Shown: positions 395 through 29,897, counted from the stretch's first letter. The stretch: 29,897 nucleotides of DNA from a virus (IMGVR_UViG_3300044611_000887:1-29897), one strand, 5' to 3'. Notes: generated by a model not told the origin, from the sequence alone. Translations and numbers: made by a program.

Positions 395-3300
395 TTAAAT
401 ATCTTCAAATGATGCTCCAGTTGGTGTTATATAGAATGTAATATCTATAAATTCTAAGGATCTTGTTGGTTTAATATAAATTTTACCTGTCATTTGATTT
501 CTATCTAAGTCTGCTGTGTCAGAAGAAACTGTAACTCGGAAATCATATAAACCTCTATCTCTTCTAATAGCATCTAATATTGGATTTACGGAGTTTAAAA
601 AGTCTTGTCTAACTTGTTCGTCATTTTGATCAAACAATAATCTTACAGATACTGCTGAGATTAATTTACGAGCTTGTAATAACAATCTTCTCACGTTAAT
701 TCTATCAAGAGCTGACTCTCTTACTTGTAAAGTTTTATTACCCCAAATTACGGTTCCTACATCAGAGAAGGTTGCAATTGGATTAATTCTTCCTTGGTAA
801 AGAGTGTCTCTATCTTCTTGAGTTAATTTTTTACGTGCTTTAATTGAGTTTACAATACCTCTTGTGTAACCTGCCGCTGCAAACCAAGGGAACGCAATAT
901 TATCTGTTAAGGCTAAATTTCTAGTTACCTCAGCAGTTGCCGGTATATATATTTGTGTATTGTTTACACTATCACGAGTTAACACCCAAGGATAATAAGT
1001 TGCGGTATAGTTAGAATCAATTCCTGTTGTTTCTAAATTATCTACCGCTTCTTGAGGATAAATAATACCATCATTACCTGTAGTTGTTGGTAAAAACATA
1101 TTATAATCGGGAGTTGTTGTAATATAAAGTGAGTCCGCTCTTTCATTTTCAATCATGTCTATTGTTGATTCAACTAAGTCACTATTATTAACATAATCAA
1201 TACCCGGTGAAACAAACACATTAATGTTAACCGCTTCAGGATTAGAGAATGTTTGAATTCCTAATAAATAAGCATAGTAGTCAGTATTTGCAAAATCTTG
1301 AGTACCATCACCAACAGCAATTTGTTTGAATGCTCCCCAACCAACTGCATTTGGATATCTGTTATCAGGACACGCTCCATTTAAATAACCAGTTCTTCCT
1401 AAAACATATCTATCACTGTTAGTTCTATGTTCACGATATATATCCCAACCATCGTAACCTCCTTGTACTAATAAAGTGAATTTTCTTGAATAAATTCTAT
1501 AATAAGGACTTGTTGGGTTATTAGGTTCAGATGAGAAATTTGCCGACCCTACATTAAATTTAGATGTTCCTGATGTTGTAAAGGCATCTGAAATAGTTAT
1601 TCCTGAAGCATCCTTATCCATGTGGAAACCTTTTGATTTATAATTCCAATCAACACTTTCAATATCACAAGTTGAGATTGTATTTCGTTTACCAATATAT
1701 TCAAAATAATTACCATCCCAACTATTATTATTAGAAATACCTAAATAGGTTCTTCTAACATTATCTCCACCACTTTGAATTGGTGTTCCAAATGGAGGAT
1801 TAAAGATAACTTCTCCAGGAAAATCGTATTTTGTTTTATAAACAGGAAATGGTGATGTTGCGGTACCATAAGTTCTAAAATTAAACCCATCAAAACCACA
1901 AGGAAGTGCATCAACAGGAGCATCTTCATTCATTTCTACCATAACATATTTAGAATTAAGTTGGTATTCACCATCTAATGAACCTGTCTTTTTTGCAATA
2001 AAATTATTTTGACTTGGATCCATACTACAGTTAGTAAATTTCTCAATCACAACTGGATTTGAATCCGTATCATAATAATCACGAATAAACACATCAAATG
2101 TTTGATTTGAAAACGAAATATTACCAATTGATATTTTTATTTCATAATTAGCTGAATCACCATCTGAAATTGTGTAAAATTTAAATAGGTTATAAACTTT
2201 TGTACCCCTAAGTTCAGATACTACCCAAGGAGAACTTGGTGTTTGGTATTTATCTAAATACCAACCAATAGAATCCGAAGCATTACTTTGTGCAGAATTT
2301 AAATCTACTAATGTTGGATTTAATCCTCTAATAAATCCTTTTCTCCAACCATAGTTTAATAAAGCCTGAAACCTTTCTTCAACAAATAAAGGAACCACTG
2401 TTCTTGGTTTACCAAAATTATCCGTACCAAAAACTTTTGTTATATATTGTGAGTCACTTGTTGCAAAAGACGTTTCAAAGTTAAAATTAACACCATCTTT
2501 ATTAGTAACATTAACACCAAATGGTAGATATGGGTTTTGTAATACACCAGAATATTGTCCTGTCATATCTAAAACTACGTCTGCCAAATTAGATACTTCA
2601 TAAATTGGGTTATTACCATTTGAATATGTTGATATACCTCTTGATCTAAATGTTGCCACAACCATATCATCATATTCTGTATATGATGTTCCTGTATAAT
2701 AATAAATTACGCCCATTACTGATCCTGAAAAACACTCAACAGGAATAGGACTTGTTGTTGTTGTTGTTGTTGTTGGAACAGGAATAACACAAGGGTCGGT
2801 TGTTGTTGATGTTGTTGTTGGTGCGGTTGTGGTTGTTGTAATTGGAGTAATATTAGTTACACCAGTAACAATTGACCAAAATGAGAATCCTGTATAACTT
2901 CCGCCACCAACATTATCAAATAATGAATAATACCACGATGTGTTTGCTCCATCACATAAATTATTTCCACTAAAAGGTATTGACGGTACACCATAAACGT
3001 TTGTTGTTGCGGTGTATGATCCATTAACCGTTAACGCATTATAATCATTATCATCAACACTACCAAAATAACTAATATATTGGTCTTCCGCAATTAATGG
3101 GTTTGAATTTGTTATTACATTAAAAATTAATTCTTTTATATTACTATCCAAAGTTGATGTTCCTCCTTGTGGAGTTTCATAACTCACATCCAATAAATCC
3201 AATATTTCCTGAGGGAAGTGTGTCATATATTCAATACTAGAAGTTGAATCCGTACATCCCGTAAAATCAACAGAATATGGTAACTCCAAAGGAATAACAC

Positions 3301-3706
3301 ATTGTTGTTCACAATTTACGGTCACTGAACTAAAACAATTAACATCAATTGTTGAACAATTAACATTTGCTTCAGTTAAGATTGACCAAGATGGTCCAGC
3401 ATCATAACCTGAAAGACCTAAAATTCTTGTTACAAATAATTGATTAGATTGTTGTAAATATGATTTCGCAATGTATGCCGCCTCATATTTAGGGATTTGT
3501 GTGTTAATAAATTTTTCGGGTGAAGTACCCCCAAAATAGTTTTGAAATTCATCGTAATTTCTTACAAAAATTGGTTCAAAAGCGGGTCCTTTTAATGTTT
3601 CTCCCGCAATACCTAAGGTTGTAACACCAACACTTTGTGCTACGAAACTTAAATCTACTTCAGAAGTGTATACTCCCGGCGATACAAATACTTTACTGTT
3701 TGCCAT
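395..3706 (-). CDS. Tail sheath protein (T4 gp18-like) with a very large insertion and a poly-Thr tract
   Basis: This 1103-residue protein is a contractile tail sheath subunit. The N-terminus (VFVSPGVYTSEVDLS, residues 6-20, then a conserved GxxxxGPxxxP region) is the typical sheath start. The C-terminal ~250 residues carry the sheath core: a TPDYN segment, RINPIATF, VIWGNKTL, and a final domain with VRQDFLNSVNPIL and KIYIKP. T4 gp18 is about 659 residues, so some 450 extra residues sit roughly between residues 105 and 600. That stretch includes a Cys-containing segment (107-151) and a Thr tract at 285-322 with runs of five to seven consecutive Thr. Sheath insertions normally face outwards, so these are probably surface domains of the tail. 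The start has no Shine-Dalgarno sequence, and an ATATTTATA box lies about 32 bases upstream. The family call is secure; the surface role of the insertion is inference. Confidence 0.93.
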   Translation of the reverse strand: MANSKVFVSPGVYTSEVDLSFVAQSVGVTTLGIAGETLKGPAFEPIFVRNYDEFQNYFGGTSPEKFINTQIPKYEAAYIAKSYLQQSNQLFVTRILGLSGYDAGPSWSILTEANVNCSTIDVNCFSSVTVNCEQQCVIPLELPYSVDFTGCTDSTSSIEYMTHFPQEILDLLDVSYETPQGGTSTLDSNIKELIFNVITNSNPLIAEDQYISYFGSVDDNDYNALTVNGSYTATTNVYGVPSIPFSGNNLCDGANTSWYYSLFDNVGGGSYTGFSFWSIVTGVTNITPITTTTTAPTTTSTTTDPCVIPVPTTTTTTTSPIPVECFSGSVMGVIYYYTGTSYTEYDDMVVATFRSRGISTYSNGNNPIYEVSNLADVVLDMTGQYSGVLQNPYLPFGVNVTNKDGVNFNFETSFATSDSQYITKVFGTDNFGKPRTVVPLFVEERFQALLNYGWRKGFIRGLNPTLVDLNSAQSNASDSIGWYLDKYQTPSSPWVVSELRGTKVYNLFKFYTISDGDSANYEIKISIGNISFSNQTFDVFIRDYYDTDSNPVVIEKFTNCSMDPSQNNFIAKKTGSLDGEYQLNSKYVMVEMNEDAPVDALPCGFDGFNFRTYGTATSPFPVYKTKYDFPGEVIFNPPFGTPIQSGGDNVRRTYLGISNNNSWDGNYFEYIGKRNTISTCDIESVDWNYKSKGFHMDKDASGITISDAFTTSGTSKFNVGSANFSSEPNNPTSPYYRIYSRKFTLLVQGGYDGWDIYREHRTNSDRYVLGRTGYLNGACPDNRYPNAVGWGAFKQIAVGDGTQDFANTDYYAYLLGIQTFSNPEAVNINVFVSPGIDYVNNSDLVESTIDMIENERADSLYITTTPDYNMFLPTTTGNDGIIYPQEAVDNLETTGIDSNYTATYYPWVLTRDSVNNTQIYIPATAEVTRNLALTDNIAFPWFAAAGYTRGIVNSIKARKKLTQEDRDTLYQGRINPIATFSDVGTVIWGNKTLQVRESALDRINVRRLLLQARKLISAVSVRLLFDQNDEQVRQDFLNSVNPILDAIRRDRGLYDFRVTVSSDTADLDRNQMTGKIYIKPTRSLEFIDITFYITPTGASFEDI
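2741..2854 (-). repeat. Thr-rich low-complexity tract inside the sheath gene
   Basis: Mostly GTT-type triplets on the plus strand encode sheath residues 285-322, which include ITTTTTAPTTTSTTTDP and [10 protein letters not shown]. The tract is compositionally like the mucin-type linkers of the fibre genes at 14716-24718 but richer in Thr than Pro. Confidence 0.85.
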
Positions 3707-7851: not shown

Positions 7852-7867
7852 TAAAAATAAATATATT

Positions 7868-8188: not shown

Positions 8189-8209
8189 AAATTTTTTACA
8201 ATTGTCGTT

Positions 8210-8218
8210 ATATTTATA
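8210..8218 (+). promoter_or_regulatory. Late-promoter-like ATATTTATA box, second tagged gene
   Basis: ATATTTATA followed by AAAAAACAAATATATT lies 16 bases before the ATG at 8235, the same spacing as for the gene upstream. It is part of a duplicated leader. Function is inferred. Confidence 0.5.
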
Positions 8219-8234
8219 AAAAAACAAATATATT

Positions 8235-8588
8235 ATGAAAAAAACAATAAGATTAACCGAAGCTGATTTATCTAAATTAATTAGAAGAGTTATTAAGGAA
8301 ATTGACGGTGATATTCCCCAAGAAATTATGAGTTGTGCAACAGAAGTATTAACATTAAGTGATATGGCTAATCTTCCAACTTGTTTGGAATTAGGTATGG
8401 AGGTAATTACTAATGGAAAAATACCAACAGATCTCATGAAAGGGTTTAAATGTGCGTCTGAATTAGTAAGATTAAATAAAAAACCTGAAGACGCTGTGAA
8501 ATTTTTTACTTGTGTTGCTAATAAAATAAGTAACCCAGTTATGAACGCAAGTCTTAAGGAAAATAAAAGAAGAATTAATGTCAAATAG
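8235..8588 (+). CDS. Four-cysteine protein with N-terminal MKKTIRLTE tag (copy 2)
   Basis: This 117-residue paralogue of the gene at 7868 has the tag MKKTIRLTEADLSKLIRRVI followed by KE, so the I-x-E motif falls at the same residues, 20-22. The body has four cysteines spaced 15, 22 and 19 apart. The motif order is cysteine, an LTLSDMANLPTC segment, a helix ending in FKC, then FFTC. The C-terminus is basic (KENKRRINVK). A 32-base stretch covering the leader and tag is identical to that of the previous gene (7859-7890 and 8226-8257), evidence of duplication. Its end overlaps the start of the next gene by 11 bases, so they are coupled. Function is unknown. Confidence 0.82.
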   Translation: MKKTIRLTEADLSKLIRRVIKEIDGDIPQEIMSCATEVLTLSDMANLPTCLELGMEVITNGKIPTDLMKGFKCASELVRLNKKPEDAVKFFTCVANKISNPVMNASLKENKRRINVK

Positions 8589-14708: not shown

Positions 14709-14717
14709 ATTATTTTT
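14690..14717. terminator. AT-only hairpin at the end of the fibre operon, weak terminator
   Basis: AAAAATAATT and AATTATTTTT flank an eight-base loop and form a perfect 10-pair stem. It begins at the stop codon of the 1645-residue gene and is followed by more T residues on the minus strand. It also overlaps the -33 region of the polymerase promoter. With no GC pairs it may be an inefficient terminator, so the fibre transcript may read into the polymerase gene. Confidence 0.45.
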
Positions 14718-17700
14718 AACAAGTTGGACAAGGACCCAATAAAATTGATGTCACACCAGCGGGAAGTGAAGGTGCTGTAGATGAACAAATAGTTGCTACT
14801 CCACTTGGACCGATAATCAGAGGTGAAATCTCGGTAATACAACACGGTGTAAATGTTATAGAAACTTCTTTTGTCGCATTAGTATTATTAATCCTATAGT
14901 AAAAACAACTCGGAGTTGGGGTTGGGGTTTTTGTTAAGGTTGGGGTTGGGGTTTTTGTTAAGGTTGGGGTTACCGTTTTAGTTGGGGTTACCGTTGGAGT
15001 TGTTGTTTTAGTCGGTGTCAATGTTGGAGTTTTAGTTACCGTTGGGGTTGGAGTCTTAGTTTTTGTTGGGGTTGGTGTTGGGGTTACACAAAGGTAGGTT
15101 GATATACAAGTATCACAGTTTACGGATGTGGTATTATTCCATATTAAACTTATTGCTCCTATTTGTAATGTAATTACCTCATAACATTGTAAATCGGTAC
15201 CAATAATCACATTTCCAGGTGTAAATGTTGATGGTAAATTAACGTATCTAAATATTGACTTAGTACAACAATCAAGAACTAAATATGTTACAAATACTGG
15301 TGTTGGAGTAGGTGTTGGTGTTTTTGTTGGAGTTACAGTTTTTGTTGGGGTAGGTGTTTTTGTTTGTGTGGGAGTTATAGTTATTGTTGGTGTTGGTGTT
15401 GGTGTTGTGGTTGGTGGGGGTGGATTTGTTGGAGTTGGAGTTGGCGTTGGTGGTGGGTTAGTTCCTGTTGGTGTATTTGTTGGTGTATTTGTTGGAGTTG
15501 GTGTATTTGTTGGAGTTTTTGTTGGTGTTACAGTATTTGTTGGTGTTGGTGTTGGTGTTGTCGGATCAATAACATAACCAATCCCACAAATTTCTAAAGT
15601 TTGTGAAGCTCGTATTTTATTTCCTATAACAGTTAACGATGTAAATGGTAATGAGTTACTAAAGGTAAATACTCCCGCACCTAAACCTGTTGTTGTTATA
15701 AAAGTAAAACAATCACTACCACCAGTTCCACCAAGAATTACATTTCCAGATATAGTTGAACAACAGTGATCACATGATGTGATAAGTGGATTTCCAATAT
15801 TAGTGGTAAAAGTCATTGCAGTACTAAGAGCAGTATATGGGGGATTTCCAGATGTTCTAATATAGGAAATTCTTAAAGTGACAGTGGTAACAGGAATACT
15901 AAATGTCATTGTATATGAATATGTTACTATTGCGGGAGGTGGAATTGGCCACTGAGTACTTGGTTGAGCACCTAATCCAAATACCGGACTAGATATGTTA
16001 AAAGAAGGGGAACAAGTATAAACACCTGCATATGCTGGCCAATTACCAAATCCTGTTGAAGTTATTACCATACCACTAGAATATGTTAACGATGCCGTAG
16101 TAACCGATCCTCCGGGATTATTTAAAAATTCATAAATAAATGGTAAGTTTGCAAATTCTTCACAGTCAGGACAATTTGGTGTTGGTGTCGGTGTTGGTGT
16201 CGGAGGAGGATCTGTTGGGGTAACAGTTGGAGTAACCGTTGGTGTTGGTGTTGGAGTTGGTGTCGATCCACTAAGATATAACAATGAATCGTTACATTCT
16301 GGAATGCTTGAGGCGTTATATACTCTAAGCCCACAATTTTGAACTAAAGTAAATGGGTATGGAGGAGATTGGTTAATGTTCCATAATGGACCAATAGGGT
16401 TTTGACCGTCTCCGGTAAAATATATCTGACTATTATCAGTAAATAAACCATAAGTGTTAAATATAGTAAAAGGATTAAAAGGAACATAAACATCCAATGA
16501 TAAAGTAGTATAGTCATACTGATTTATCCCAAAAAAACCACCAAAACCCATACCTACATTAACTAATAGTTTACTTGGAGATGTTGTTGTAAACATTAAA
16601 TCCTCAAAAACTTGAACATTTGGAGGTAATGTAATTAAAGTTAATAATGATGCTGTTGTTGTCGTAATATCAAATTCTACTATTTCTGTAATCGTTGAAC
16701 TAACAGTAATACTACCAATTAATGTGGAATTACTTTTTGCCGTCAATCCGCTACCCATAACAATAGGAAGTGGAATTGTTATAATTCTATTAAATGTTGC
16801 ACTAAAAGGACATGGTTGGTAGTCGTACTCATAAATAACCCATTGGGTCCCTCCAGGTATAGAAACAACAGTTTGTAAAAAGATTTTATTAGATGTGTGT
16901 GCAATTCCATAAATTGAAAGTGATGGATATGACCCACTAAAAAATGGTGTTAAAAAAATTGGGATATTAGTTGTAATATCATAAGAATAAACATCCAAAC
17001 TAACATTACTCGCATCTAATGCAACAAATAAAACATTACATCTTTCTAAACAAATAATATTTTCTGGTACGGAATCACAAAATGTTAATACTGAACCAGA
17101 TCCACCACCTGGTCCTGATATTGTTAAAGATGTAAAAGGAAGTGAGTTGTTTATGTTGAATAGACCTGAACCTACTACCCCGCCATCACAATCACTATTT
17201 ATATTAGAGGCGGTAATTACATTTCCTGAAATTGAAACACAACATCCTGAACATAAATTAATATTGGGAGTATTACTCCCTGTGTTAGTTGTTAAAGTAA
17301 AAGATTCTCCAACATTATATCCAACTAAAAAAATTTTAAAATCATTAACTGGATAACTAAAATTTAATGTATATGTGAATGGACCACTCCCACCAATGTA
17401 AATCGAATTTTGGATCGCACAAAAACCACAATAAATTTCCGAACAAGATGGAGATGGATAAATTGCAACAGATCCTGTACCAGTTGCGGAAATTGTAAGA
17501 CCATTTGAATACATAATACTATTGCCTATTGCAGGTAAAAGAGTTTCTTGATCACAATCACAAGGTAATGGTGGAGGTGTTGGTGTTGGTGTTGGTGGAG
17601 GATCTGTTGGGGTAACAGTTGGTGTTACAGTTGGTGTTGGTGTAACATATGGAGGTATAAACTCCAAATCAATACATTCAGGACTTTGCCCTGAATCAAA

Positions 17701-19653
17701 AGACCTACTCTGCAAAAAGTTTCCAAGTAATGAAGTTGTATACGGAGATACATTTGATATTGACCAAAGTTCATTACCAGGAAATCCTCCTATATAAAAT
17801 AAATTATTCCATTGGAAAAATGATTGTATAGTAGTTGTTATTGAAATTAGAATGTCGAGTTGTACCTGCCAAGAACCTGCAATATATTGAAATTGAGTAA
17901 CGTATTTTTGTAATGTTGATGTGTCAAGTCCTATTGTAATCATTTTACCGTTGTTGTTCATAACAACTTCAGTAATTTGTCTATTAGCTGATAAAGTACT
18001 TAATTGAAATAATGAAGTTTTAGACCAAACAGTTCCGCTAATGTCCACTAAAACAATGTCAAAACCTGTACTACTAAATCCCATGGATACTAATAAGTTA
18101 GGGTTGACTATATTTGTTATTGGATCCCTATATACACATAATGCACCTGCCAACCAACCTAACCCTGGAATAGCACTTGGAGATGCAATGTCCCTAGACC
18201 AAACTGCATTCCAAGGACTTAACGTAATATCCCATTCTCTTATTCCTTGAGAAGCGTCTTGACATATCCATAATTTTGTTGATGTATTTGTCATAGATTG
18301 ACCTAATACATTTAAAGAATTGGGTAAATTTAGTAATGTTGTTATATTTGATGTTGGATTATAAGAATATAAACCGACAGAAGCCGGAGAAGATGTATCT
18401 AACCTTGTCATTATTAAAGGTAAACAGTTCGCATCAATTGGTTCTGGAGTATTTGTTGGTGTTGGTGATGGTAATAATCCTGATGTTGGTGTAACAGTTG
18501 GTGTTGGTGTTGGTGATACGGGTGGTTGAACCGAATCTGAACATATGTCAACAATGGTACCACCATAACCACCTGGTCCTGTTATGGTTAAAGTGGTAAA
18601 TGTAGATATATTTGAAATTGTGAACGTACCGCCACCATCATTAGTTCCTGGTAAAATCGGACAAAAAATTGATGTAACAACATTTCCAATAATTGTAGCA
18701 CAACAATAATCACAAGAAGATAAAACAGGGTTACCACTATTTGTGGTAAACGTAAATGATTCAGATCCGAAACCTGGTGGTGAACTATAATTAATTAATC
18801 TTATTACTAAATTATTAACCGGTGAACTAAAATTTAAAATATAAGTAAATGGCGATGATAAAAATGATGCGGACCCTAAAAATGCGGTATTAGTTGCTGA
18901 TCCGAGTGGTATCATGCACCAAGCAAAACTACCCCCTGGATCTGTTAGAATATCACCAAAACCTGAGGCGGTTACTGTAACACCATTAATTGTTGTTGAA
19001 GATCCTAAACCAGGTAAAGCACTAACCGTTGCACATATCGGACAAACGGGTGTTGGTGTTGGTAATAACCCTGAAGTTTGTGTTGGTGTTTGTGTTGGAG
19101 GTAGTCCCGGTGTTACTGTCATAGTTGGTGTTACTGTAGGGGTTGGTGTTGGACAAGGTTCTTCTAATAAACATACGGAACAATCACCCAATTGTTCTAT
19201 TAAGGTTGCCAAATCATCAGTATATGATATTAGAGTTGATGCTGGCGTGGATGGAGAAACGTTAGTTATACACCCATTAAATAATAATGAAGATAAATAA
19301 TATGAATTAGTGGTTATAGGAAAAAAAGTACTTGGGATATTATCTATTCGTATATATATACTAGGGTCACAACAAGATTGAAATACTGCGACTCCCGGTA
19401 ATGGACATTCACCAATTGTTACATCAAAAGACGCATCTGAACAACTATCAGTTGGATCATAAATAAACCATCCTGTATCAGGAAAAGAGTCACTATCTGT
19501 TGATCTTGGTTGTCCACAGAAGATACCCTCCCAACCGATCATTTCCCAATAACCAAGATTATTCCATCTAATTGTTAATGGAGTTGTGTTATCATACCCA
19601 ACCCAAGAAGGTTTTGAGTTATAAAAACCAATAAAATTAAAATCATAATTCAT
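14716..19653 (-). CDS. Giant mucin-like, multi-module surface or fibre protein
   Basis: This 1645-residue protein has no known family for the whole. It is a chain of cysteine-containing beta domains joined by Thr/Pro linkers. A ~165-residue module occurs three times (about 205-372, 698-860, 1161-1357). Its signature is a strand pair ending in NFS.PVN, then FT.TTN.G, C..CC, GNV(I/V) and FT.LT..GPGG. Two propeller-like segments (about 405-665 and 868-1128) lie between them, giving an A-B-A-B-A order. A third module with CC..SI...(N).PSTF recurs at about 88-162 and 1454-1522. Thr/Pro linkers lie at 168-202, 379-403, 671-696, 1130-1159, 1365-1452 and 1524-1581. A host-binding fibre or capsid decoration is likely from context and layout. 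No signal peptide or enzyme motif is seen. The linkers are candidates for O-glycosylation by the upstream transferases. Confidence 0.88.
14911..15084 (-). repeat. Thr/Pro-Lys coding repeat tract near the C-terminus
   Basis: Encodes residues 1524-1581 as variants of TPT-(V/L)TKTPT. The DNA is a degenerate short tandem repeat of GGGTT/TTGGGGTT type on the plus strand. Confidence 0.85.
15298..15561 (-). repeat. Longest Thr/Pro coding repeat tract of the giant fibre gene
   Basis: Encodes residues 1365-1452, made of [15 protein letters not shown] and TKTPTPTKT variants. Plus-strand DNA is dominated by GTTGGTGTT and GTTGGAGTT words, which makes it prone to slippage and recombination. Confidence 0.85.
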
Positions 19654-19683
19654 TTTTTAATGTTTGTTTTTTTTTCTTTAATT

Positions 19684-21612
19684 TTAACTACTAATAAATG
19701 TAAGTAAATTACTTGTTATCGTACCACCACCAGCTGCAGGTGTTATAAATGCCGTAATAGATATTCTGTATGTATGATTTGGAGGACAAGTTCCACCATA
19801 ACCATTTGGATTAACCGCATTTGGGAACCAATCTGTTTGTTGTATAGACGCACCTGCTTGCCATCCTGAGAGTCCTGATGTCCATAAATTAATTGATGTT
19901 TGAGTTGGTGGGATATTTATTACTTTCCAATGAACAAAATATCCACTAGGACTTGATCCAGGTGCGTTAATATCTTCCATTAATAAACTATAACTGATAA
20001 CATCATTTGTGTTTAAGTTATTTATAAACCAATCTAATCCAACACTATAATTTTGACCTGGAGGACAGATTGGATGTCTTACCGACTGAGCTAATGTTTG
20101 ACCATTTAAGAACTGAGGACTTGTTAAAATAAGACTTGGTGGTGCGCTACATACGGATTGGGTCATTGTGGTACCTACTTGGTAATAATATTCATTTAAA
20201 CAGGTTGTTGCTGTGATTGGGTTTAATCCCGGTAAAGTAATTAAATTTAGGTTTGGATTTACTAATGGAGCTGTCCCACCTGTCCAAGCTTTAATTCCTA
20301 ACTCATTTGCAACGTCATCAATTCTACAAGCATAACCTAACCAATTGTTGTATGAATTTGGTAAACCACATCCTATTGGTGGAGGAGTTATGGCGTAATT
20401 AGTGTTAAAAACATTGTTGGCTCCAGTAGCAGTGGGATAAGATGGGCAGCTATTACCGGCAAATACTAAACCTATTACTTTAAAGTTTGGTGATGGTTGG
20501 GTACCAAAATTGGCAATTAACATTGATCCTGAATCACCACCGGCACATGGCCATAAACAGTGTGGTTGAGCAGGTATACCGCTTGGTTTAAAAAATGCTA
20601 TTAATCTTGGGTTAAAATCTGCAGCTGTACTATATTGTTGACCGCCAGCAGCTAAATGCCAACTATAAGGTCCAACAGCAGTTGCAACATTTATCTGACT
20701 AATCCTTAATTCACATCCCGGTGTTCCTAAACCCTTTGGTCCGGTTGATCTACCAGTACTATATAATTGTGGGTTTGTTACCAATAAGTTATTAATTTCA
20801 GCGGTTGTTGCAAAAGGTAATGGATTAGGCATTAAAGCTTCAAACCCCGAAAATTTAAAAGATTGATTAAAATCAATTTCATTACAATTAATACTAACTA
20901 ATGCGGCATCTACATTATTTTTTGGTAATCCTAATGGAGATGCTATCCATCCGCTACTTGGTGGTAAAGTTTGATAGGGTGAAATTGGTACATATCTAAC
21001 AACTTGACCAAATTTACTACCTGTTTGAAACCCAAATTCCCCAGGTTGGCAAACGTCATTATCTGGATTTATTTCGTTAGTTATTGGGAAATTATTTCCC
21101 AATACAGGATTTAAATTTTGATATTGAGCCTTTATAGAGTTTCCAATTACAACGTGATTATTTGTTAAACCAACTAAAGCGTTCGTGTGTATGTCTTGCA
21201 CAATCATACCTAAAGTACCAACAGAATTACCTTTTCTTACCGAAGTTATAGATATACCACCTCTCAATGTTGCAAATGCAGATCTATTTGTTGGTGGTGT
21301 TAATACAAAAGGCTCACAAAGCGGAGGTGAGTTAGTGATAGGTGTTGTTCTACTACATTGTAAAGTATAAATTTCACCAACTTGTATTACATCAGTATTA
21401 AGTGTTTTATTTTCACTTATTTTTATTTCTGATGGTAAAATTTCATTATCGGATAAATTACTTAACGGTTTTTTTTCTTTCACCGAAAAAACAATACAAA
21501 CTTCACCAGTATAAATACCGTTAGTTTGTTTAAACCCATAACCAACACCAACATCAGATGGTGTATTATCACTCCATTCTTTTAATTTTTTATTTATTTC
21601 TTCTGTTATCAT
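19684..21612 (-). CDS. Trypsin-like serine protease fused to a PEBP (YbhB-like) domain
   Basis: The protein is 642 residues from the ATG at 21610-21612. That start gives the same spacing to the DVGVGYG motif as in the paralogous gene upstream, whereas the in-frame start six codons earlier does not. Residues ~115-445 form a chymotrypsin-fold protease with H153 (LTNNHVV), D235 (NNVDAALVS) and S361 (CAGGDSGSM); all three catalytic residues are present. Residues ~497-642 match the phosphatidylethanolamine-binding protein family: LLMEDINAPG (the D-x-D-A-P region), FVHWKVINIPP, and YGGTCPPNHTYRISITAF (the GPxPPxxxHxY region). Unlike its neighbours it has no long Thr/Pro tract. Cysteines are frequent and there is no signal peptide. 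It is probably a virion surface protein that can cleave proteins or bind a ligand, by context. Confidence 0.88.
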   Translation of the reverse strand: MITEEINKKLKEWSDNTPSDVGVGYGFKQTNGIYTGEVCIVFSVKEKKPLSNLSDNEILPSEIKISENKTLNTDVIQVGEIYTLQCSRTTPITNSPPLCEPFVLTPPTNRSAFATLRGGISITSVRKGNSVGTLGMIVQDIHTNALVGLTNNHVVIGNSIKAQYQNLNPVLGNNFPITNEINPDNDVCQPGEFGFQTGSKFGQVVRYVPISPYQTLPPSSGWIASPLGLPKNNVDAALVSINCNEIDFNQSFKFSGFEALMPNPLPFATTAEINNLLVTNPQLYSTGRSTGPKGLGTPGCELRISQINVATAVGPYSWHLAAGGQQYSTAADFNPRLIAFFKPSGIPAQPHCLWPCAGGDSGSMLIANFGTQPSPNFKVIGLVFAGNSCPSYPTATGANNVFNTNYAITPPPIGCGLPNSYNNWLGYACRIDDVANELGIKAWTGGTAPLVNPNLNLITLPGLNPITATTCLNEYYYQVGTTMTQSVCSAPPSLILTSPQFLNGQTLAQSVRHPICPPGQNYSVGLDWFINNLNTNDVISYSLLMEDINAPGSSPSGYFVHWKVINIPPTQTSINLWTSGLSGWQAGASIQQTDWFPNAVNPNGYGGTCPPNHTYRISITAFITPAAGGGTITSNLLTFISS

Positions 21613-21623
21613 TTTTTTTATTA

Positions 21624-23462
21624 TTAGCAATTATATGATTCAAATGTCACAAATGACGTAAATGGACCAACAGCTGCGTTAACAGGTGTTGGTGTAGGTG
21701 TTTTAGTTGGTGTAGGTGTTGGAGTTTTAGTTACCGTTGGAGTAGGAGTTTTAGTTTTAGTTACTGTTGGTGTCGGTGTTTTGGTTGGTGTTGTTGATGG
21801 TGATAATCCTGGTGTTGTTGTTATTGTTGGTGTTGGTGTTGTTGTTGGAGTTTCGGTTGGTCTCGGAGTTTCGCTTGGTGTTACGGTTGGTGTTGCGGTT
21901 GGTGATAATCCCGGTGTTGGTGTGACAGTTGGTGTTGGTGTTGGAATTGGAATACAATCACATGATGAATCTTCAGTATAAACAGAACCCGATCCAGAAA
22001 TAACACTTGCACTTATTGCACATATGGTACCAGTTTGGAAGGTGGGAACGGGTAATAAAATTGTTACACCTTCACAACTAACATAAGAAATTGTTGAACC
22101 AGTACCAAACGGACCACCATAATAAGCCCAAGTTTTACAACAAGGTGTGGTTGGGGTAGGTGTGGGTGTAAGTGTACCAGTAGGTGTTGGACTAATATCA
22201 CATGGTACTGTTAAATTATAAGCGCCTACTTGCCAATATGTGTCACCCCCCGAAACTTGTGTTTTAACACTATTAAACCCTGGCACTGTAATATAGGATA
22301 TTGTGGTTGAATCAACGTATGGTTTAGTTGTTCCATCCCAAGATTGAATACCAAGTTCACTTGCTACGTGGTCAATTCTACAAGCAAACCCATAATATTC
22401 AGAACCAGCAAACACTAGTCCAACAATTTTTGATGTACCACTAAAATCTGCAACCAATGCAGATCCAGAATCACCAGCAAAAATAGGGTAGTTACAAACG
22501 GTTGCTAAGTTAGGGTCGTTTTCGGGTCTTACAAACATAATTATATCCGTGAATGGAATTGTGGTTGATGTTCCTTGGATATTATATCCACTGACACCAC
22601 CAGCAAAACCCAACGTGAAAGTTCTTAGTGGACAAGGTATTCCTTGTTTAACTCCTGTTGTTCTACCACTACTAAACAACATTGGATTTGTTGTTAATAA
22701 ATTATTAATTTCTGTCGTTGTTGCAAAAACGTAAGGAGAATTATAAGTCAAACCAAATTGTTTGAAAGATTCCGCAATATCGATAACTGGATTACATTCA
22801 ACTGAAATTAGTGCTCCATCAACTTTGTTAACTCCACCCGACACGGATATCGGAACATACCTAACAACTTGACCAATCATAGCTGCAGGAGCAGGTGAAG
22901 ATGATTCCCCATTTTGAAATGCAGAATCAGGTTGTACCGCCCCACCTGAAATAATATCATATTCATTTTGTATAAGACCTGATGGGTTTCTTTGACTTGT
23001 GTATGATGCGTCCCTAATTACAACGTGATTATTTGTTACACCAACCAAAGCTTGAGTTGCAACATCAACCGCAATAAATCCTAAAGTACCTACAAAACCA
23101 AGTTTAGTTTGAGAGGTAATTGATATACCACCTTTAATTGGTCTATGTTGTAGACGATTTGTTGGTGGTGTACCTGGATTTGTCCAAGTGTAACAACTAG
23201 GATCACAAGCAAAAGTTTTAATTATACCCACCTCAATAACATCGGTTTTTAGAACTCTATCACTTAAAGTAAATTCAACATCAGGTAATAATTCATTTTC
23301 AGGAATTAAATGTGACGGTATTTTTTTTGGTACAAAAAATATGATTGACTCTTCATTAGTCATTTCACCATTTTTTATTTTTGTACCATAACCAACGCCC
23401 ACATCATTAGGTGTGGCGTTAAAAAGTTCTTCGATAATTTCTTTTATTTCGTCAGTTAACAT
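21624..23462 (-). CDS. Trypsin-like serine protease with mucin-like Thr/Pro tail
   Basis: This 612-residue paralogue of the following gene has the same N-terminal domain ([10 protein letters not shown] at 17-26) and a protease domain with H146 (VTNNHVV), D215 (NKVDGALIS) and S332 (IFAGDSGSA), so the triad is intact. After the protease comes a short Thr/Pro linker (424-440), then a small cysteine domain starting [16 protein letters not shown] (441-503). The same domain occurs in the next upstream protein. A Thr/Pro-Lys tract (505-594) follows, and a short hydrophobic C-terminus ends in YNC. The start overlaps the previous stop by seven bases. The protease may process other virion proteins or cut host surface proteins; neither can be told from sequence. 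Confidence 0.88.
21681..21950 (-). repeat. Thr/Pro coding repeat tract of the protease gene
   Basis: Encodes residues 505-594 with TPTPTVT, TPGLSP and TKTPTPT units. Open frames in the antisense direction (for example 21781-21981) are by-products of this repeat. Confidence 0.85.
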
Positions 23463-24718
23463 GATTTAGTATTATATTTTATATAAATAGTGTTATTAGT
23501 TATAATTCCACAAGTTGGTGTTGGTGTTGGTGTCGGTGATAATCCTGGTGTTACGGTAGGATTTGGTGTAGGTGTTTTTGTTGGTGTAGGTGTCGGTGAT
23601 AATCCTGGTGTTACGGTAGGAGTAGGAGTAAGTGTTTTTGTTGGTGTTGGTGTTGGTGATAATCCTGGTGTTGTTGTTGTTGTTGGTGTTTTTGTTTTTG
23701 TTGGAGTTGGAGTTGGTGATAATCCTGGTGTTGTTGTTGGTGTTGTTGTTGGAGTTGTTGTTGGAGTTGTTGTTGGAGTTTGTGTTTGTGTAGGAGTCGG
23801 GGTTGGGGTTAGTTGTGCGGAACCACAAGTACAAGTACTTTCAAGATAAGTTTGACCATCTCCCGATAATTTTATAACGGATAACGCACATATTGTAGAA
23901 GCGTATCCCGTTGAAGCACTAAAGGTTGTTGTGTTTCCTGAACAATCTAACCATTGGAATGTAGATCCAGAAACAGGTCCCCCAAAATAATACCAAGTAT
24001 TACAACAAGGAATTGGACTTCCTGTTGGTGTAATTGTTGGTGTTGGAGTTACTGTTGGTGATTGAATAAACACACTAAAACAAAACTCATCTATTGGTGA
24101 CGGAAGAGGTATTGGAGTTTTTGTTGGTGTTGGTGTTGGTGATAATCCCGGTGTAGGTGTAGGTGTAGGTGATAATCCCGGTGTTGGTGTAGGTGTAGGT
24201 GATAATCCCGGTGTTGGTGTGACAGTTGGTGTTGGTGTTGATGTTGGAGTGTCTTGAGGACAACAACATTCTGTAGTTGTTGTAGTTGTTGTTGGACACA
24301 CATTATTACAACAAGGAAACTCTATTAAATAACAACTTTCATATGGTAAATCTTCCGCAATGAAACTTTCTTGTACATTAATAAATAATTGTTCTCGTAT
24401 TGGTAATATTAAAACTCCTTGAGAATTTCTTAATAAGAATTGAGCCTCATATCTTGCAGTTTTATTTGTGTCTTGTGGTTTGAATTGATAATAAATGTAA
24501 TATTCAGGTTCCGCATTAGGATCCAAAAGTACTTTCTCAACAAATCCAGCCGAACTTGTTGAAATTTTAGGAATCCCGGTTTCAACATTAGTCATTGAAA
24601 AGAAGATAGAGGACTCTTCAATCATATCCATGAAAGAATTATAATCACTTCTACCGTCTTTTACAACCTGTAATTTTAATATAGGGAGAGTTGCATTCTT
24701 TTTAATGAAAAATTCCAT
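23456..24718 (-). CDS. Mucin-like fibre protein with baseplate-type N-terminal domain
   Basis: The protein has 420 residues. Residues 1-135 are a beta domain: [15 protein letters not shown], a strand set around [17 protein letters not shown], then [20 protein letters not shown] and LFINVQESF. That order resembles the Ig-like N-terminal domain of siphophage upper-baseplate (BppU) proteins, which anchor to the particle. A Thr/Cys knot ([14 protein letters not shown], 141-154) leads to a Thr/Pro tract with three GLSPTPTPT units (157-205). Next comes the [15 protein letters not shown] cysteine domain shared with the protease downstream (238-298). A second tract of about 100 residues (303-402) is made of ~20-residue [13 protein letters not shown] repeats. 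It is likely a tail appendage in which the N-terminal domain docks to the virion and the repeats project. The anchor assignment is inference. Confidence 0.85.
23513..23812 (-). repeat. Tandem ~20-residue [11 protein letters not shown] repeat array
   Basis: About five units in residues 303-402, with GGTGATAATCCTGGTGTT recurring on the plus strand at each GLSP. Unit borders are regular enough to allow unequal recombination between copies. Confidence 0.85.
24104..24250 (-). repeat. Short [10 protein letters not shown] repeat array
   Basis: Three ten-residue units in residues 157-205 of the same gene. The plus-strand word GATAATCCCGGTG recurs at 30-base spacing. Confidence 0.85.
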
Positions 24719-24731
24719 TTATAGTTTTTAC

Positions 24732-24740
24732 TATAAATAT
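24732..24740 (-). promoter_or_regulatory. Late-promoter-like ATATTTATA box upstream of the 420-residue fibre gene
   Basis: On the minus strand ATATTTATA is followed by GTAAAAACTATAA and the ATG. It would start a transcript covering the three downstream fibre and protease genes separately from the glycan genes. Function is inferred. Confidence 0.5.
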
Positions 24741-24756
24741 GCTGAACTACTAAATA

Positions 24757-27147
24757 TTAACTTTCTTTTCTTAAAGAACCATCATAATGATGAAATCTAT
24801 GGTGCTCCGTTGGAGTTAATAATAATAATCCAGGATTAATTTTTCCTTTTACTGTTTCTTGATAAGAATAACTCATAAGTACTTGTTCATGAGGGTGAGC
24901 CCATTTTGTTTCTAAATAACAATTATAATTACCTTTTTTTGTTAAAACAATTGGCCAATTACACAAAAATATTTCACCCGTAATATATGGTAATCCTTTG
25001 TGAATATGTATTTCATCAAATTTTGTTTTAGGTGAATTAGAATCTAATCCTTGAGTAGGTAATTTAGGATTTTTTGGCCAATGATTTTTTCTAAAATCTT
25101 GTGGTACGTTATACCATGAAAATTGAATATCATTGGATCCGTAGAATTCACTAAAATTAAGTTTAAGAAAATCAAAATTTTCTTTTTGTATTATCTCTAA
25201 TGATTTCTGATATAAATTATCAACATAACGAGAAAATCCGTTTCGACATACCTCACCTTTTTTAGGGTAAAATGACATGTCATCTTCAAACCAATAATAA
25301 AAATCTAAATCAGTTTCATCAAAATGTTCTGCAACGAATACTCTACCACCAACAATCCCAATGTTATCTTTTTTAATGTGTTCAAAACCATATTGTTCAC
25401 ATAGTTCAATATATCTTGGTGTTGTTGATAAATCAGTTGAATTATCTAATAAGAATTTCTTTGGTTTCTCAATAAAATCTTTATCGTAATCCAACATTGA
25501 TTGGATAAGTACTTCTAATTGTTTTGGTGAGTTAAATGTGATAACATAAAGACCAACCTTTGATGTGTCCAAATTATTTACAACAACATCTTTTGATACT
25601 TCCGATTTAACCTCAACAGTCGTATTTTTTAAATCCTCAAAGAATCTACCCATTAACCCATTACCTTCTATTTCTGAATAAGTAATTAAGTTTGGATACT
25701 TGTATGTCATAATTGTAAATAATGACTCTTCGGTTCCCATTAACCCTTGTGATAATGTGTCATTCATTAACCCATAATAGATACTATTAATTTCTGTTAT
25801 TGCGTCTTTTTTTCCGCCAAAGAAACCAGCTCGAGCAACCATATTAACAGGTTTACCAACTAAATCACACAACTCTTGATATTTGAATCCGTGTATTTCA
25901 CTATTGGTTTCATATGGAAAACAAACAAAGTGAAAATTATTAACTAATTGGGGTAATTTATCTAAAACTTTATCATGTGTAAAATATCCTGGATGTATTG
26001 TGTTAGTTAATCCGGCGTCAACCCAAAACATATATTCTGAATTAAACTTATCTAAAATTTTTGCGTCGTGTAAAAGATAAATTTTAGACATAACTAAAGG
26101 ATTATACATCTCTAGTTTAGCTTGTGTCGAATCTGTTAACCAACCAACTTGATTATACCAATCAGGATTGGTTCTAATTTTTTGAATTTTATCGTAGAAT
26201 TCATTATTCTTAAACCATGATAAATCCCTACGAACAAATTGAGTATTTTCATCACGTCTATTATCTAATACAAATTTTTCTAATTCTTCGTCCCCAAAAA
26301 TTATCATATTTACGTCAACTTGTAATAATTGTTGAAACTTATCTAAATAATGTTGGTATGATCGAGACCACCCTTCTTGGAGTTCTCCTCTACCTATATC
26401 CCATAGTCCCGTAACTATAGTAATAACATTGTTTTGAGTATTAACAGTTTTTTTAATAATATTATTTTTTGGTTTACTTGATGAAAAAATTTCATCATAA
26501 AAATATTTTGGTAACCCAACAATATCTTGACCCGATATTTCATATATAAAATCATTAGTTTTGAATATTTCAATTATCTCACTTTGTTCTTGTTCAGATA
26601 AATTAATCCATTCTAATCTTATAACCTTTGGTGTGTATTTTTTAAAATCAATTTGTTTAAAAATTTTAAAATCATGTCCTTCAGCATCAACTTTAAGAAT
26701 ATCAAAGTTATTTAGTTTATGTTTATCCATTAAGGTTTCAAATGTGATACATGGAACCTTAACCAACTTACCATATTTTTCAACTGTAAGTCTATCGCCT
26801 TCACTTCCCAAACCATTTTTAGGTGGATAAACCGCACTCATACCATAAAAACAACTGTGAATTAAACCACTATCAATGACTTCTTTGTCAATTGTCATCA
26901 TTTCAATTTCACCATCATAATCAGATATTGCACTATTTTCAAATAATCCTACATCACCAATATTACTTTTTAATCTATCAAATAGGTAAGGTATTGGTTC
27001 AACATATAGAACATTAAAATTGTACATTTTAGTATACCCAATCATCTCGTCAAACATCACACCATCCATTGAACCAATGTTTAATGCGGTTATGGTATTA
27101 TTAGTTTTACCTAAAAAGTGTAATGACTCATCAAAAAAATTTTCCAT
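24757..27147 (-). CDS. Three-domain fusion: FkbM methyltransferase, HtrL/WlaTC-like domain, glycosyltransferase
   Basis: The protein has 796 residues. Residues ~15-215 are an FkbM-type SAM methyltransferase with ALNIGSMDG (21-29), YVEPIP (48-53) and ILKVDAEGHDF (150-160); such enzymes O-methylate sugars. Residues ~240-495 resemble the HtrL/YibB/WlaTC family found in surface polysaccharide loci: TIVTGLWDIGRG, FWVDAGL (374-380), ARAGFFGG and GTEESLFT are all present. Residues ~525-796 look like a GT-A glycosyltransferase with a YVITFNSP opening, a WFEDDM motif at 619-624 (possible DxD metal site) and a His-rich C-terminus (TEHHRFHHYDGS). It lies in the glycan block just ahead of the mucin-like genes. 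It could add and methylate sugars on them or alter host or virion glycans. Domain calls are fairly sure; the acceptor is unknown. Confidence 0.87.
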   Translation of the reverse strand: MENFFDESLHFLGKTNNTITALNIGSMDGVMFDEMIGYTKMYNFNVLYVEPIPYLFDRLKSNIGDVGLFENSAISDYDGEIEMMTIDKEVIDSGLIHSCFYGMSAVYPPKNGLGSEGDRLTVEKYGKLVKVPCITFETLMDKHKLNNFDILKVDAEGHDFKIFKQIDFKKYTPKVIRLEWINLSEQEQSEIIEIFKTNDFIYEISGQDIVGLPKYFYDEIFSSSKPKNNIIKKTVNTQNNVITIVTGLWDIGRGELQEGWSRSYQHYLDKFQQLLQVDVNMIIFGDEELEKFVLDNRRDENTQFVRRDLSWFKNNEFYDKIQKIRTNPDWYNQVGWLTDSTQAKLEMYNPLVMSKIYLLHDAKILDKFNSEYMFWVDAGLTNTIHPGYFTHDKVLDKLPQLVNNFHFVCFPYETNSEIHGFKYQELCDLVGKPVNMVARAGFFGGKKDAITEINSIYYGLMNDTLSQGLMGTEESLFTIMTYKYPNLITYSEIEGNGLMGRFFEDLKNTTVEVKSEVSKDVVVNNLDTSKVGLYVITFNSPKQLEVLIQSMLDYDKDFIEKPKKFLLDNSTDLSTTPRYIELCEQYGFEHIKKDNIGIVGGRVFVAEHFDETDLDFYYWFEDDMSFYPKKGEVCRNGFSRYVDNLYQKSLEIIQKENFDFLKLNFSEFYGSNDIQFSWYNVPQDFRKNHWPKNPKLPTQGLDSNSPKTKFDEIHIHKGLPYITGEIFLCNWPIVLTKKGNYNCYLETKWAHPHEQVLMSYSYQETVKGKINPGLLLLTPTEHHRFHHYDGSLRKES

Positions 27148-27148
27148 A

Positions 27149-28735
27149 TTATATTTTATTTATATATAATTTTTGTCTACCATCAAAAAGTAAAATGTAC
27201 CCTAATGATATTAAATGAGGTGATAATAAAGCATCTTTACCTTCATTTGTTAATATAAAGTCGGTATCATCAATTAGAATTAAATGGGTGTCGGATAATT
27301 TATCTTTACACACTTCAAATGATTCTAAATGTTTTTCTTTATATAAATCGGTTCCGACATCCCAACCATCTAAAAATAAAACATCAATTTTTCCATCAAA
27401 CTCTTTTAAAAATTCAATACCGTCTTTTGGAATATTTAAATGTAAATTTTTAGGAATTTCTCTACCTAATGACCCAAATGACCACTCAGCATGAATAACA
27501 CAATTTTTATCAATATCAACAGAATGAACATCAAAACCTTCTAACGCAAACATTATACCTCCGTGACCGTCAGCACAACAAGGAGGTGACACAAAAGGAT
27601 TATCACCTAAATAGTAATAGTTAATACATTTTGGAGTAAGACCATGTCTTGTTGATCCAATTTCGACAACGGTTTTAAGTCCTAAAACTTTGGCAATTTC
27701 AGAGGTTTTTTTAATATAAGGTGCCGGTTTACTTCTTTCATTATTATGTTGTTCTCCACTTAGATGTGTTGTGTCCCAAAATCTTTTATCTATTTTATTA
27801 AAATCGCCGGCTAATTTATACACTAAGTCGGATATATTATTAATTTCGATGATTTCAGGAATATTGGGTTTAGCAATCCCATCAACTATTTTTGGTTTAG
27901 AACTAACAATAACATTATCCGATGGTTTATAATTTGGATTTTCAATTATTTTAAATTCCTCAGGGATAAAAAATTTTGGTTGTTCGTCTAACATTGTTGG
28001 GTGATTACATCCAGTATTAGTTACACTATTTGAATGTCTAATAACTGGAAATGTTGTTACCCCTTGAAATTTATACCAATCATCATACGTTGATAACTTA
28101 TCAACATCAGGGACGTAGGGAACAACAAACATTTTTATCTTTTTAAACTTAAAGTAAAATGACAATAAAACATCATCTGATTTTGTTTTACCCACAAAAT
28201 CACTAAAGAATTCAGTTTCAAAATATTTAACAAAATATGATGCTGATTTATAATGTTGTAAGTCTTTTACCTCCAATGGTTCATTTACACTTAAAACCCA
28301 AGAATCCCTTAAATCACCGTACTTTGGAGTCACTAAACTTCTACCGTCATATAGTACAACAGAATTAGGTAACTCTATATGGTATTTTATATGTTCTAAG
28401 ATCATATCTTCATGATAAACTAAATCATCATCAACAACGATTAATAACGTATTACTGTCTTCACGAATGATAGTTGGAATAACCTTTGTTGGTGGTCCCA
28501 TATCTTCCGTTCTGAAGATTTTTAAATGGTCATATGATTCTTGATAGTCATCTAACCATTGTGGTATTATGTATTCTTCACCCGTAACATTATATGTAAA
28601 AGGTAAATTTAAATGTACTTCATAATTATTGAAATTTTGTTCACAAATTGATTTCATAACCAATTTAAAACCATCCTCAACATCTTGATTTAAACGTTCG
28701 GGTACTGTTGTTAGGGAAATTACTATCTTATACAT
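27149..28735 (-). CDS. Glycosyltransferase-methyltransferase fusion
   Basis: The protein has 528 residues. The N-terminal ~245 residues are a GT-A-like glycosyltransferase: IVISLTTVPERL at 4-15, MGPPTKVIPTI (79-89) and LLIVVDDDLVYHEDM (97-111), whose DDD is the likely metal/nucleotide-sugar site. After a linker (~250-310) comes a class I SAM methyltransferase of about 200 residues with TVVEIGS (355-361), HSVDIDK (404-410), VLFLDGWD (452-459) and ILIDDTD (486-492). The combination suggests a sugar is transferred and then methylated, or that two steps of one glycan are tethered. The start overlaps the stop of the upstream DUF6165-like gene by eight bases. Substrates cannot be read from sequence. 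Confidence 0.87.
   Translation of the reverse strand: MYKIVISLTTVPERLNQDVEDGFKLVMKSICEQNFNNYEVHLNLPFTYNVTGEEYIIPQWLDDYQESYDHLKIFRTEDMGPPTKVIPTIIREDSNTLLIVVDDDLVYHEDMILEHIKYHIELPNSVVLYDGRSLVTPKYGDLRDSWVLSVNEPLEVKDLQHYKSASYFVKYFETEFFSDFVGKTKSDDVLLSFYFKFKKIKMFVVPYVPDVDKLSTYDDWYKFQGVTTFPVIRHSNSVTNTGCNHPTMLDEQPKFFIPEEFKIIENPNYKPSDNVIVSSKPKIVDGIAKPNIPEIIEINNISDLVYKLAGDFNKIDKRFWDTTHLSGEQHNNERSKPAPYIKKTSEIAKVLGLKTVVEIGSTRHGLTPKCINYYYLGDNPFVSPPCCADGHGGIMFALEGFDVHSVDIDKNCVIHAEWSFGSLGREIPKNLHLNIPKDGIEFLKEFDGKIDVLFLDGWDVGTDLYKEKHLESFEVCKDKLSDTHLILIDDTDFILTNEGKDALLSPHLISLGYILLFDGRQKLYINKI
27157..27164 (-). promoter_or_regulatory. TATAAATA box before the FkbM-fusion gene
   Basis: Exact TATAAATA on the minus strand, inside the last codons of the upstream gene and ten bases before the ATG at 27147. 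Could be an internal late promoter, but AT richness makes chance possible. Confidence 0.35.
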
Positions 28736-29099
28736 CAGAACTTGCGTGATTCATTTTAACATCTTTATATCCTTCACCAAAAGTTTCAACGATTATATTT
28801 TTATAACCAACTCTAATTTTGTTGAATTCTCTAATTCTTATTGCTCTCCTACCAACTTCTTCTAATCCTAATTCACCTTCTTTGCCTTTTCTAATATCAG
28901 ATTCTAAATCCCATATCTCTCCATTAATAGAAATTAATTTATCGATATAAGTCTCAATAACTTGAGAATTAATTATTTTATAATCTTCAATTACTTCCGA
29001 CAAATCTTTTAATTCAACATCATTATCGGCATCTAATCTTTGTTTTTTTAAAACGGCAATTGAATATCTATCTAAAATTTCACTTATTGGGTATTCCAT
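28728..29099 (-). CDS. DUF6165-like small helical protein of the glycan block
   Basis: This 123-residue, largely helical and charged protein opens with PISEILDRYSIAVLKKQRL. It has a long central helix (LSEVIEDYKIINSQVIETYIDKLISING) and a C-terminal RIREFNKIRVGYKN segment. The layout (an S/G-E-(I/L)-(I/L)-D start, coiled central helices, and R.IR..N..R...K near the end) resembles DUF6165 proteins, which usually sit beside glycosyltransferases in polysaccharide loci. No catalytic motif is visible, so a structural or adaptor role for the neighbouring enzymes is possible. It overlaps the next gene by eight bases, so the two are coupled. Confidence 0.78.
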   Translation of the reverse strand: MEYPISEILDRYSIAVLKKQRLDADNDVELKDLSEVIEDYKIINSQVIETYIDKLISINGEIWDLESDIRKGKEGELGLEEVGRRAIRIREFNKIRVGYKNIIVETFGEGYKDVKMNHASSDV

Positions 29100-29156
29100 T
29101 TTTATTATATTTTTTGTTTATATTATTAAATCAATATTAAGTATATGATATTAAAA

Positions 29157-29897
29157 TCATAAATTTCCTGTTATTCTTTCACACCAACCTTTTGACGTAC
29201 TAAAAGGCCAAACAACCCAGTATTTTGGTTTATGTGTTGTTTGGAAATCTCTCCATACTTTACAATACCCATCAGGGTCATTCATCATTGAATTAATTTC
29301 ATTGATGTCAGCATCTTTCCTAAAAAGGGTTTCATCGTTTTCATTGTGAAAGGCAACCACCCAAAATTCATAATCTTTCTCAGGTACTTGAGTAAACCCA
29401 ATATCAATACAGTGTTTGAATATTGATGCGTAACTTGACATCAATTCTTCTTCTGTTTCAAAAATATGTGGGTTTGGAGGATAATTTTTATCTAAGGTAT
29501 ATTGTTGTACCGCTCTTTTTGAAAACAAAAGACCTGAATATATTTCATAATCTCTTAATGATCTTTCTGTACCAAAACCGTATTTACTAAAATCTAAAGT
29601 AATTTCTTCACCATCCATACCAAATAACTGACGATTTTTTTTGTGAGCAAATTCATTTTTTTTACCCCATTCTTTATCGTCATCCCATTGTTTTGTTCTA
29701 CCCTTACGAGTATATTCATGCCAAATAACAACCTTATGGGGATGAAACAAATCATATCCATGAGTATATGATCTTACAGCAATTGAAATTTCTTCTCCAT
29801 GAAAATAAAATTCAGGATCATGTTGAACCTCTTCACTAAATTTACCTAAAGTAAAAGCAAAATGAGCAGAATAAAATCTTGCCGTTACAGGTTCTTT
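29157..29897 (-). CDS. GlcNAc-transferase of the Skp1/mucin type (PF11397-like), 5' end outside window
   Basis: The frame is open to the right-hand edge, so this is the C-terminal 246 residues of a longer protein. A TTG at 29750 is not the start. From the edge the translation reads FYSAHFAFTLGKFSEEVQHD, then PEFYFHGEEISIAVRSYTHG, then YDLFHPHKVVIWHEYTR. This matches the conserved block of the GlcNAc family: a HF.F..G.F..EV..DP...F.GEE region, then R..T.GYDLF.P....WH.Y.R. In eukaryotes such enzymes transfer GlcNAc to protein hydroxyproline or threonine; bacterial and viral members are less studied. It stands first in the window's glycan block and co-oriented with the Thr/Pro-rich genes, so threonine O-glycosylation of those proteins is plausible. 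The acceptor is inferred. Confidence 0.82.
   Translation of the reverse strand, partial: KEPVTARFYSAHFAFTLGKFSEEVQHDPEFYFHGEEISIAVRSYTHGYDLFHPHKVVIWHEYTRKGRTKQWDDDKEWGKKNEFAHKKNRQLFGMDGEEITLDFSKYGFGTERSLRDYEIYSGLLFSKRAVQQYTLDKNYPPNPHIFETEEELMSSYASIFKHCIDIGFTQVPEKDYEFWVVAFHNENDETLFRKDADINEINSMMNDPDGYCKVWRDFQTTHKPKYWVVWPFSTSKGWCERITGNL

Follow-up and report, generated by a model that had tools for sequence, protein, structure and literature searches.

The minus-strand gene block of an uncultured viral contig is best read as a phage-encoded O-glycosylation system, one that probably acts on mucin-like tail proteins. The window analyzed here, which is the whole stretch of 29,897 bases, carries genes for a tail sheath, a head-tail adaptor, a family-B DNA polymerase, and an SNF2-like helicase, together with a block of genes for threonine/proline (T/P)-tract proteins and transferases that, as anticipated, are all oriented on the minus strand. 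Few examples are known of glycosylated proteins in phage particles. The original prediction that the phage glycosylates its own T/P proteins is supported by conserved synteny, controlled comparisons of co-occurrence, the same gene adjacency in Bacteroidota, and glycoproteins reported from the virions of phage XacN1; from these we infer a glycan, its site on T/P peptides, and a bottlebrush function. The system would represent a variant of virion glycosylation rather than a categorically new process, and by analogy would work like a serine-rich repeat protein (SRRP) locus with a GT60 initiator.

Tandem Thr/Pro-rich tracts, the feature expected of mucin-type acceptors, are present in three window proteins, which together contain eleven tracts of 17-99 residues that far exceed those in composition-preserving shuffles of the same proteins. 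The largest, a 1645-aa protein (14716..19653, minus strand), consists of duplicated globular domains joined by six tracts of 17, 29, 31, 35, 93, and 59 residues (264 tract residues versus a shuffle maximum of 136). A 612-aa NAL1-like serine protease (21624..23462, minus strand; phrog_20754, 3.6e-20) carries tracts of 21 and 89 residues (110 versus 63), and a 420-aa putative tail-appendage protein (23456..24718, minus strand) carries tracts of 55, 18, and 99 residues (172 versus 119), the last of which (23513..23809), composed of [11 protein letters not shown] repeats, is the longest in the window and a proposed acceptor. These three T/P products are real; they had been described as consecutive, which they are not, because a tract-less 648-aa protein with NAL1-like protease and PEBP-like domains (19684..21630, minus strand; PF01161, 3e-10; phrog_20754, 1.7e-14) stands between the 1645- and 612-aa products. 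The two proteases form a tandem pair that is 37% identical, with intact H-D-S motifs. The poly-Thr insertion noted in the tail sheath (395..3706, minus strand; phrog_23, 7.7e-55) was borne out as a 36-residue Thr-rich insert at residues 287-322 (2741-2848), against a shuffle maximum of 23. The tetrapeptide TPTP is encoded in 26 different ways among 57 occurrences, a variety that can only suggest protein-level selection on the tracts; a codon-position mismatch test for such selection was uninformative, since variation in the X residues as well leaves mismatch rates alike at the three codon positions. Plus-strand GVGVG-rich open reading frames at 18914-19300 and 23490-23849 were rejected as genes, being reading-frame shadows of the T/P repeats.

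The glycosyltransferase at the window end belongs to PF11397 (CAZy GT60); its C-terminal 246 aa are encoded at 29157..29897 on the minus strand, the N-terminus being cut by the window end. Its predicted family was confirmed on this partial gene (2.1e-30, 106.9 bits against a cutoff of 21; phrog_24687, 1.3e-92) and again on the full gene of 415 aa (L004:4633-5880; 242 bits against the same cutoff, 1.6e-71), found on an 88-kb contig, L004, that is near-identical to the window and whose GT60 has one Ser/Ala difference. The DSH (DXD-like) metal/donor motif is intact, reading QIDSHMRF or QLDSHMRF in 24 of 24 aligned sequences, with DSHMRF invariant and QIDSHMRF in the full-length L004 enzyme. An AlphaFold model (pLDDT 61.6) is confident in the N-terminal GT-A half and of low confidence in the remainder; as the whole model is poor in the middle, the GT-A half alone was used for structural comparison, and the best matches of this modeled fold, TarS, TarP, SpsA, and polypeptide GalNAc-transferases, place UDP-GlcNAc enzymes and polypeptide GalNAc-transferases among the top matches. 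A sequence search of the PDB with the GT60 returned only T7 RNA polymerase matches, which are due to chance. GT60 enzymes of Trypanosoma cruzi make GlcNAc-alpha-O-Thr on surface mucins (PMC9472816), and Gnt1, also of GT60, acts on hydroxyproline, as in the modification of Skp1 in Dictyostelium and Toxoplasma (PMC6939170). The phage enzyme resembles these CAZy GT60 polypeptide GlcNAc-transferases (TcOGNT and Gnt1) in scoring well over the PF11397 cutoff and in its DSH motif, and differs from eukaryotic GT60 enzymes in being phage-borne, in lacking a Golgi setting, and in a conserved C-terminal extension of about 120 residues. It is proposed as a candidate UDP-GlcNAc:polypeptide (Thr) initiating enzyme.

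The 420-aa protein offers a view of the acceptor side across relatives. Its conserved 137-aa N-terminal domain was modeled with a pLDDT of 82, and the model shows weak structural similarity to the phage NF5 baseplate (E 2e-3) and also weakly resembles BppU, baseplate, and minor tail models. A tail is present in 36 non-redundant relatives; it is Thr-rich in 33, includes TPTP in 24, and in 11 shows poly-Thr while lacking TPTP. Thr and not Pro is the constant tract residue, with poly-Thr often in place of Thr-Pro. This distribution bears on the very improbable alternative that the GT60 targets hydroxyproline rather than threonine, which has the precedent of Skp1 Gnt1 (PMC6939170) on its side, along with the abundance of Pro as the second main tract residue and the two bacterial GT60-like genes, described below, that adjoin a 2OG-Fe(II) oxygenase. 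A hydroxyproline target sits poorly with the 11 relatives whose poly-Thr tails lack TPTP, and a prolyl hydroxylase (PF13640) was found in none of 20 GT60 phages, so that the pairing of a Skp1-type hydroxylase with GT60 was not seen among them. The frequent replacement of Thr-Pro by poly-Thr, together with the missing prolyl hydroxylase match in these phages, makes Thr the likely acceptor. The T/P proteins of relatives more broadly match LamG, BspA-type LRR, papain, NAL1-protease, beta-propeller, and virion-structural families.

Stronger support for a link between tracts and enzyme comes from gene order in relatives, which include a large group of giant freshwater phages. A total of 488 GT60 relatives were found on viral contigs, and 32 non-redundant loci (GT60 identity under 95%) made up the synteny set. 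T/P tracts occur in the gene at position -1 of the GT60 in 26 of 31 loci and at none of positions +1 to +3, with the next T/P gene usually at +4 to +7; the genome-wide background is 8/342 and 7/249 T/P genes in two large contigs (2-3%). Given the shared ancestry of the phage loci, 26 of 31 is to be read as conserved synteny and not as 26 independent events. On L004, another T/P gene (539 aa), outside the window, lies directly upstream of the complete GT60, and ahead of it come a GT9 enzyme and a protein whose fibrinogen-C-like domain is borderline. The latter (L004:606-1598; PF00147 just below cutoff) is a possible lectin-like appendage.

Co-occurrence of transferase and repeats across relatives, which had been put forward as a test, was strongly positive. 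Of 26 records, 24 selected through their DNA polymerase and the other two being XacN1 and RAS14, 23 had GT60 and 24 had TPTPTP sites; the polymerase-selected contigs G002, G011, and G012, which are GT60-negative, are not counter-examples because these fragments end before the expected GT60 place. GT60 was present in 10 of 28 contigs chosen solely by the [11 protein letters not shown] pattern, and in 8 of 21 contigs with an in-frame T/P tract in the retrieved stretch, compared with 0 of 20 random contigs that were comparable in size (one-sided Fisher about 0.002). The remaining 13 of the 21 in-frame T/P contigs had no GT60, nor any glycosyltransferase family among the neighbors of their T/P genes; T/P genes without GT60 or nearby transferases therefore exist, and tracts alone do not predict a glycosylation system. 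Such genes favor the view that T/P tracts are plain unglycosylated linkers that stand beside transferases with some other target only through a shared variable tail or late region, as do the general mosaicism of tail fiber regions and the occurrence of T/P genes elsewhere in the genomes. This view is nevertheless rather unlikely, given the T/P gene exactly at -1 in most loci against so low a background and the recurrence of the adjacency on bacterial chromosomes without phage tail genes.

Among isolates, this GT60 is held only by XacN1, RAS14, and CM1. TPTPTP sites number 29 in XacN1 and 19 in RAS14, compared with none in 11 of 12 other large phages and one in P-SSM2. XacN1 carries both the GT60 (ORF334) and an HtrL enzyme (ORF330), its T/P proteins include ORF350 and ORF325, with few Lys or Arg residues in the tracts, and at least two glycoproteins have been reported from its virions, for which phage transferases including ORF334 were suggested (PMC5852040); the text of that report does not name the glycosylated proteins or link the GT60 to T/P proteins (PMC5852040).

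A similar arrangement is found on bacterial chromosomes. Two Bacteroidota genomes, one of them from the Saprospiraceae, encode a GT60 that is 70% identical to the phage enzyme together with an HtrL-type enzyme and, in divergent orientation, a Ser/Thr/Pro-repeat protein that bears a T9SS sorting domain. The Saprospiraceae locus is surrounded by chromosomal genes, UvrB being one, and not by phage tail genes. In a third genome, of the same family as the Saprospiraceae genome, the GT60 adjoins an FkbM-HtrL fusion that is 56% identical over its full length to that of the window. The GT60s of these three genomes form the sister group to the phage clade. PF11397 is rare in the phylum, with 1 of 396 in a phylum-wide Bacteroidota search. 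Other settings were also encountered. In genome G252 (L496), a PF11397 enzyme of 315 aa is encoded next to a radical-SAM/SPASM peptide maturase and to a peptide-exporting ABC transporter that contains a peptidase; the cluster may specify a glycosylated RiPP, and this GT60 has no T/P neighbor. In genomes G510 and G588 (L497 and L498), a 2OG-Fe(II) oxygenase (PF13640) and a sulfotransferase-like gene adjoin the gene for a giant protein, about 1530 aa long, in which two regions are PF11397-like. With bacterial GT60 genes placed next to a peptide maturase and exporter or a 2OG-Fe(II) oxygenase, the acceptor is plausibly a protein. The G510 and G588 arrangement resembles, in bacteria, a Skp1-type hydroxylation and glycosylation pair.

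The enzymes encoded with the GT60 form a cassette between flanking T/P genes, the content of which differs from locus to locus among relatives. Two glycosyltransferase-methyltransferase fusions had been proposed in the window. The first, at the conserved end of the cassette (24757..27147, minus strand), holds as a fusion of an FkbM methyltransferase, HtrL_YibB, and a GT2-like region (Pfam, 6e-15 and 7e-20), and its residues 242-796 are 41% identical to XacN1 ORF330; the second (27149..28735, minus strand) is weakly supported, its GT2-like N-terminus (E 0.016) and Methyltransf_24-like C-terminus (E 0.09) both falling below cutoff (phrog_24975, 9e-12). The DUF6165-like label given to the small 123-aa cassette protein at 28728..29099 (minus strand) was not upheld, as no Pfam match was obtained at E 0.1. 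Families listed among the matches of 106 diverse cassette proteins include FkbM and rhamnosyl O-methyltransferases, GT2, GT7, GT10, GT11, GT25, GT34, and PLOD-type glycosyltransferases, in addition to a carbamoyltransferase, an aminotransferase, and a nucleotidyltransferase. No transmembrane segment is predicted in 105 of the 106 proteins, and hence no flippase, polymerase, or ligase was seen; such a soluble cassette points to stepwise glycosylation and not to a lipid-linked polysaccharide route. It is accordingly quite unlikely that the cassette remodels the O-antigen or capsule of the host, thereby blocking superinfection or altering serotype: surface glycans are the typical setting of the GT9, GT25, GT10/11, and rhamnosyl O-methyltransferase families, but the family of the conserved leading enzyme is one whose acceptors are polypeptides (PMC9472816; PMC6939170), and the cassette adjoins T/P proteins.

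The commonest known role for phage glycosyltransferases is the modification of DNA, and the C-terminal glycosyltransferase domain of the HtrL protein weakly resembles DNA-base glycosyltransferases (PF20691/TAGT, phrog_842). It is very improbable, however, that the transferases add sugars to hydroxymethylated bases of the phage DNA as protection against restriction. A thymidylate-synthase family match (PF00303), which cannot separate thymidylate synthase from hydroxymethylase, was found in 12 of 20 GT60 phages and was absent from the other eight, some of which are fragments. Moreover, the same enzymes adjoin a secreted protein in bacteria, and methyl-, carbamoyl-, and fucosyltransferase-type additions suit glycoproteins better. 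Separately, in the large contigs behind L016 and L021 (G1112 and G1113), thymidylate synthase family matches occur in pieces, which suggests inteins, introns, or insertions.

Under the O-glycosylation reading, the GT60 would act in the cytoplasm of the infected cell, where it would place the first sugar, most likely alpha-GlcNAc from UDP-GlcNAc, on Thr residues of the T/P and poly-Thr tracts in tail-appendage proteins encoded by neighboring genes. Downstream cassette enzymes, with the HtrL-type protein as the other conserved member of the system, would then extend and decorate this sugar stepwise by glycosylation and O-methylation and, in relatives, by carbamoylation and fucosylation-type transfer. 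The glycosylated tracts may serve the virion as stiff, protease-resistant, mucin-like linkers joining globular adhesin, lectin-like, and protease domains. As cassette genes are swapped among relatives, the sugar coat of the virion would vary in the manner of a serotype.

A functional analogue is provided by the SRRP (Fap1) loci of Gram-positive bacteria, in which a GlcNAc initiator and variable extension enzymes act stepwise and are encoded beside a repeat protein (PMC5207161). Both have a repeat acceptor gene adjoining a conserved initiator and variable extension transferases. They differ in that the phage initiator would be a GT60 whereas SRRP loci use a Gtf1/Gtf2 (GtfA/GtfB) pair, and in that the phage tracts are Thr/Pro and their putative acceptors are tail proteins rather than exported adhesins; no GT4 stands among the cassette families listed (25 of 44), and no SecY2 was seen in the cassette. 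Mycobacteriophages and XacN1 are alike in having phage-encoded transferases tied to virion glycoproteins, with the difference that the mycobacteriophage sugars, described on the C-termini of capsid and tail tube proteins (Freeman et al., 2023, as cited in PMC12619734), are not on mucin-like tracts. The moraphages, aquatic jumbo phages with predicted Bacteroidota hosts, have glycosyltransferases as four of their core orthologous groups (PMC12619734), and in these respects would resemble the present phages; the main text of that study discusses the transferases apart from T/P proteins and mentions neither threonine nor mucin (PMC12619734).

If correct, this reading would mean that a dedicated mucin-type system is widespread among uncultured phages, numbering in the hundreds, largely aquatic and in many cases jumbo, and that Saprospiraceae chromosomes already hold its bacterial counterpart; it would also offer a testable explanation of why jumbo phages encode so many transferases that have lacked one. 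The bacterial and phage GT60s are candidate mucin-type initiators usable in Escherichia coli, and glycotype may be a layer of phage-host variation overlooked by genome surveys. More tentatively, jumbo phages and Bacteroidota hosts could share a portable mucin-type module, consisting of GT60, an HtrL-type enzyme, and interchangeable extension enzymes between T/P acceptor genes, in which the swapping of cassette genes by phages changes the glycotype of their appendages, by analogy with bacterial serotypes, and possibly mimics host surface glycoproteins.

Two further features were observed on the plus strand of the window. The gene at 9203-10297 joins an N-terminal region, in which an HExxH metalloprotease-like motif (HEWVHEW) occurs, to an Fe/Mn superoxide dismutase domain (PF02777, 4.6e-39; PF00081), a fusion that is unusual for a phage. 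At 7832-8588, neighboring small proteins resemble each other in their N-terminal segment, MKKTIRLTExDLxxxxRRVI(R/K)E, which is possibly a targeting or cleaved leader.
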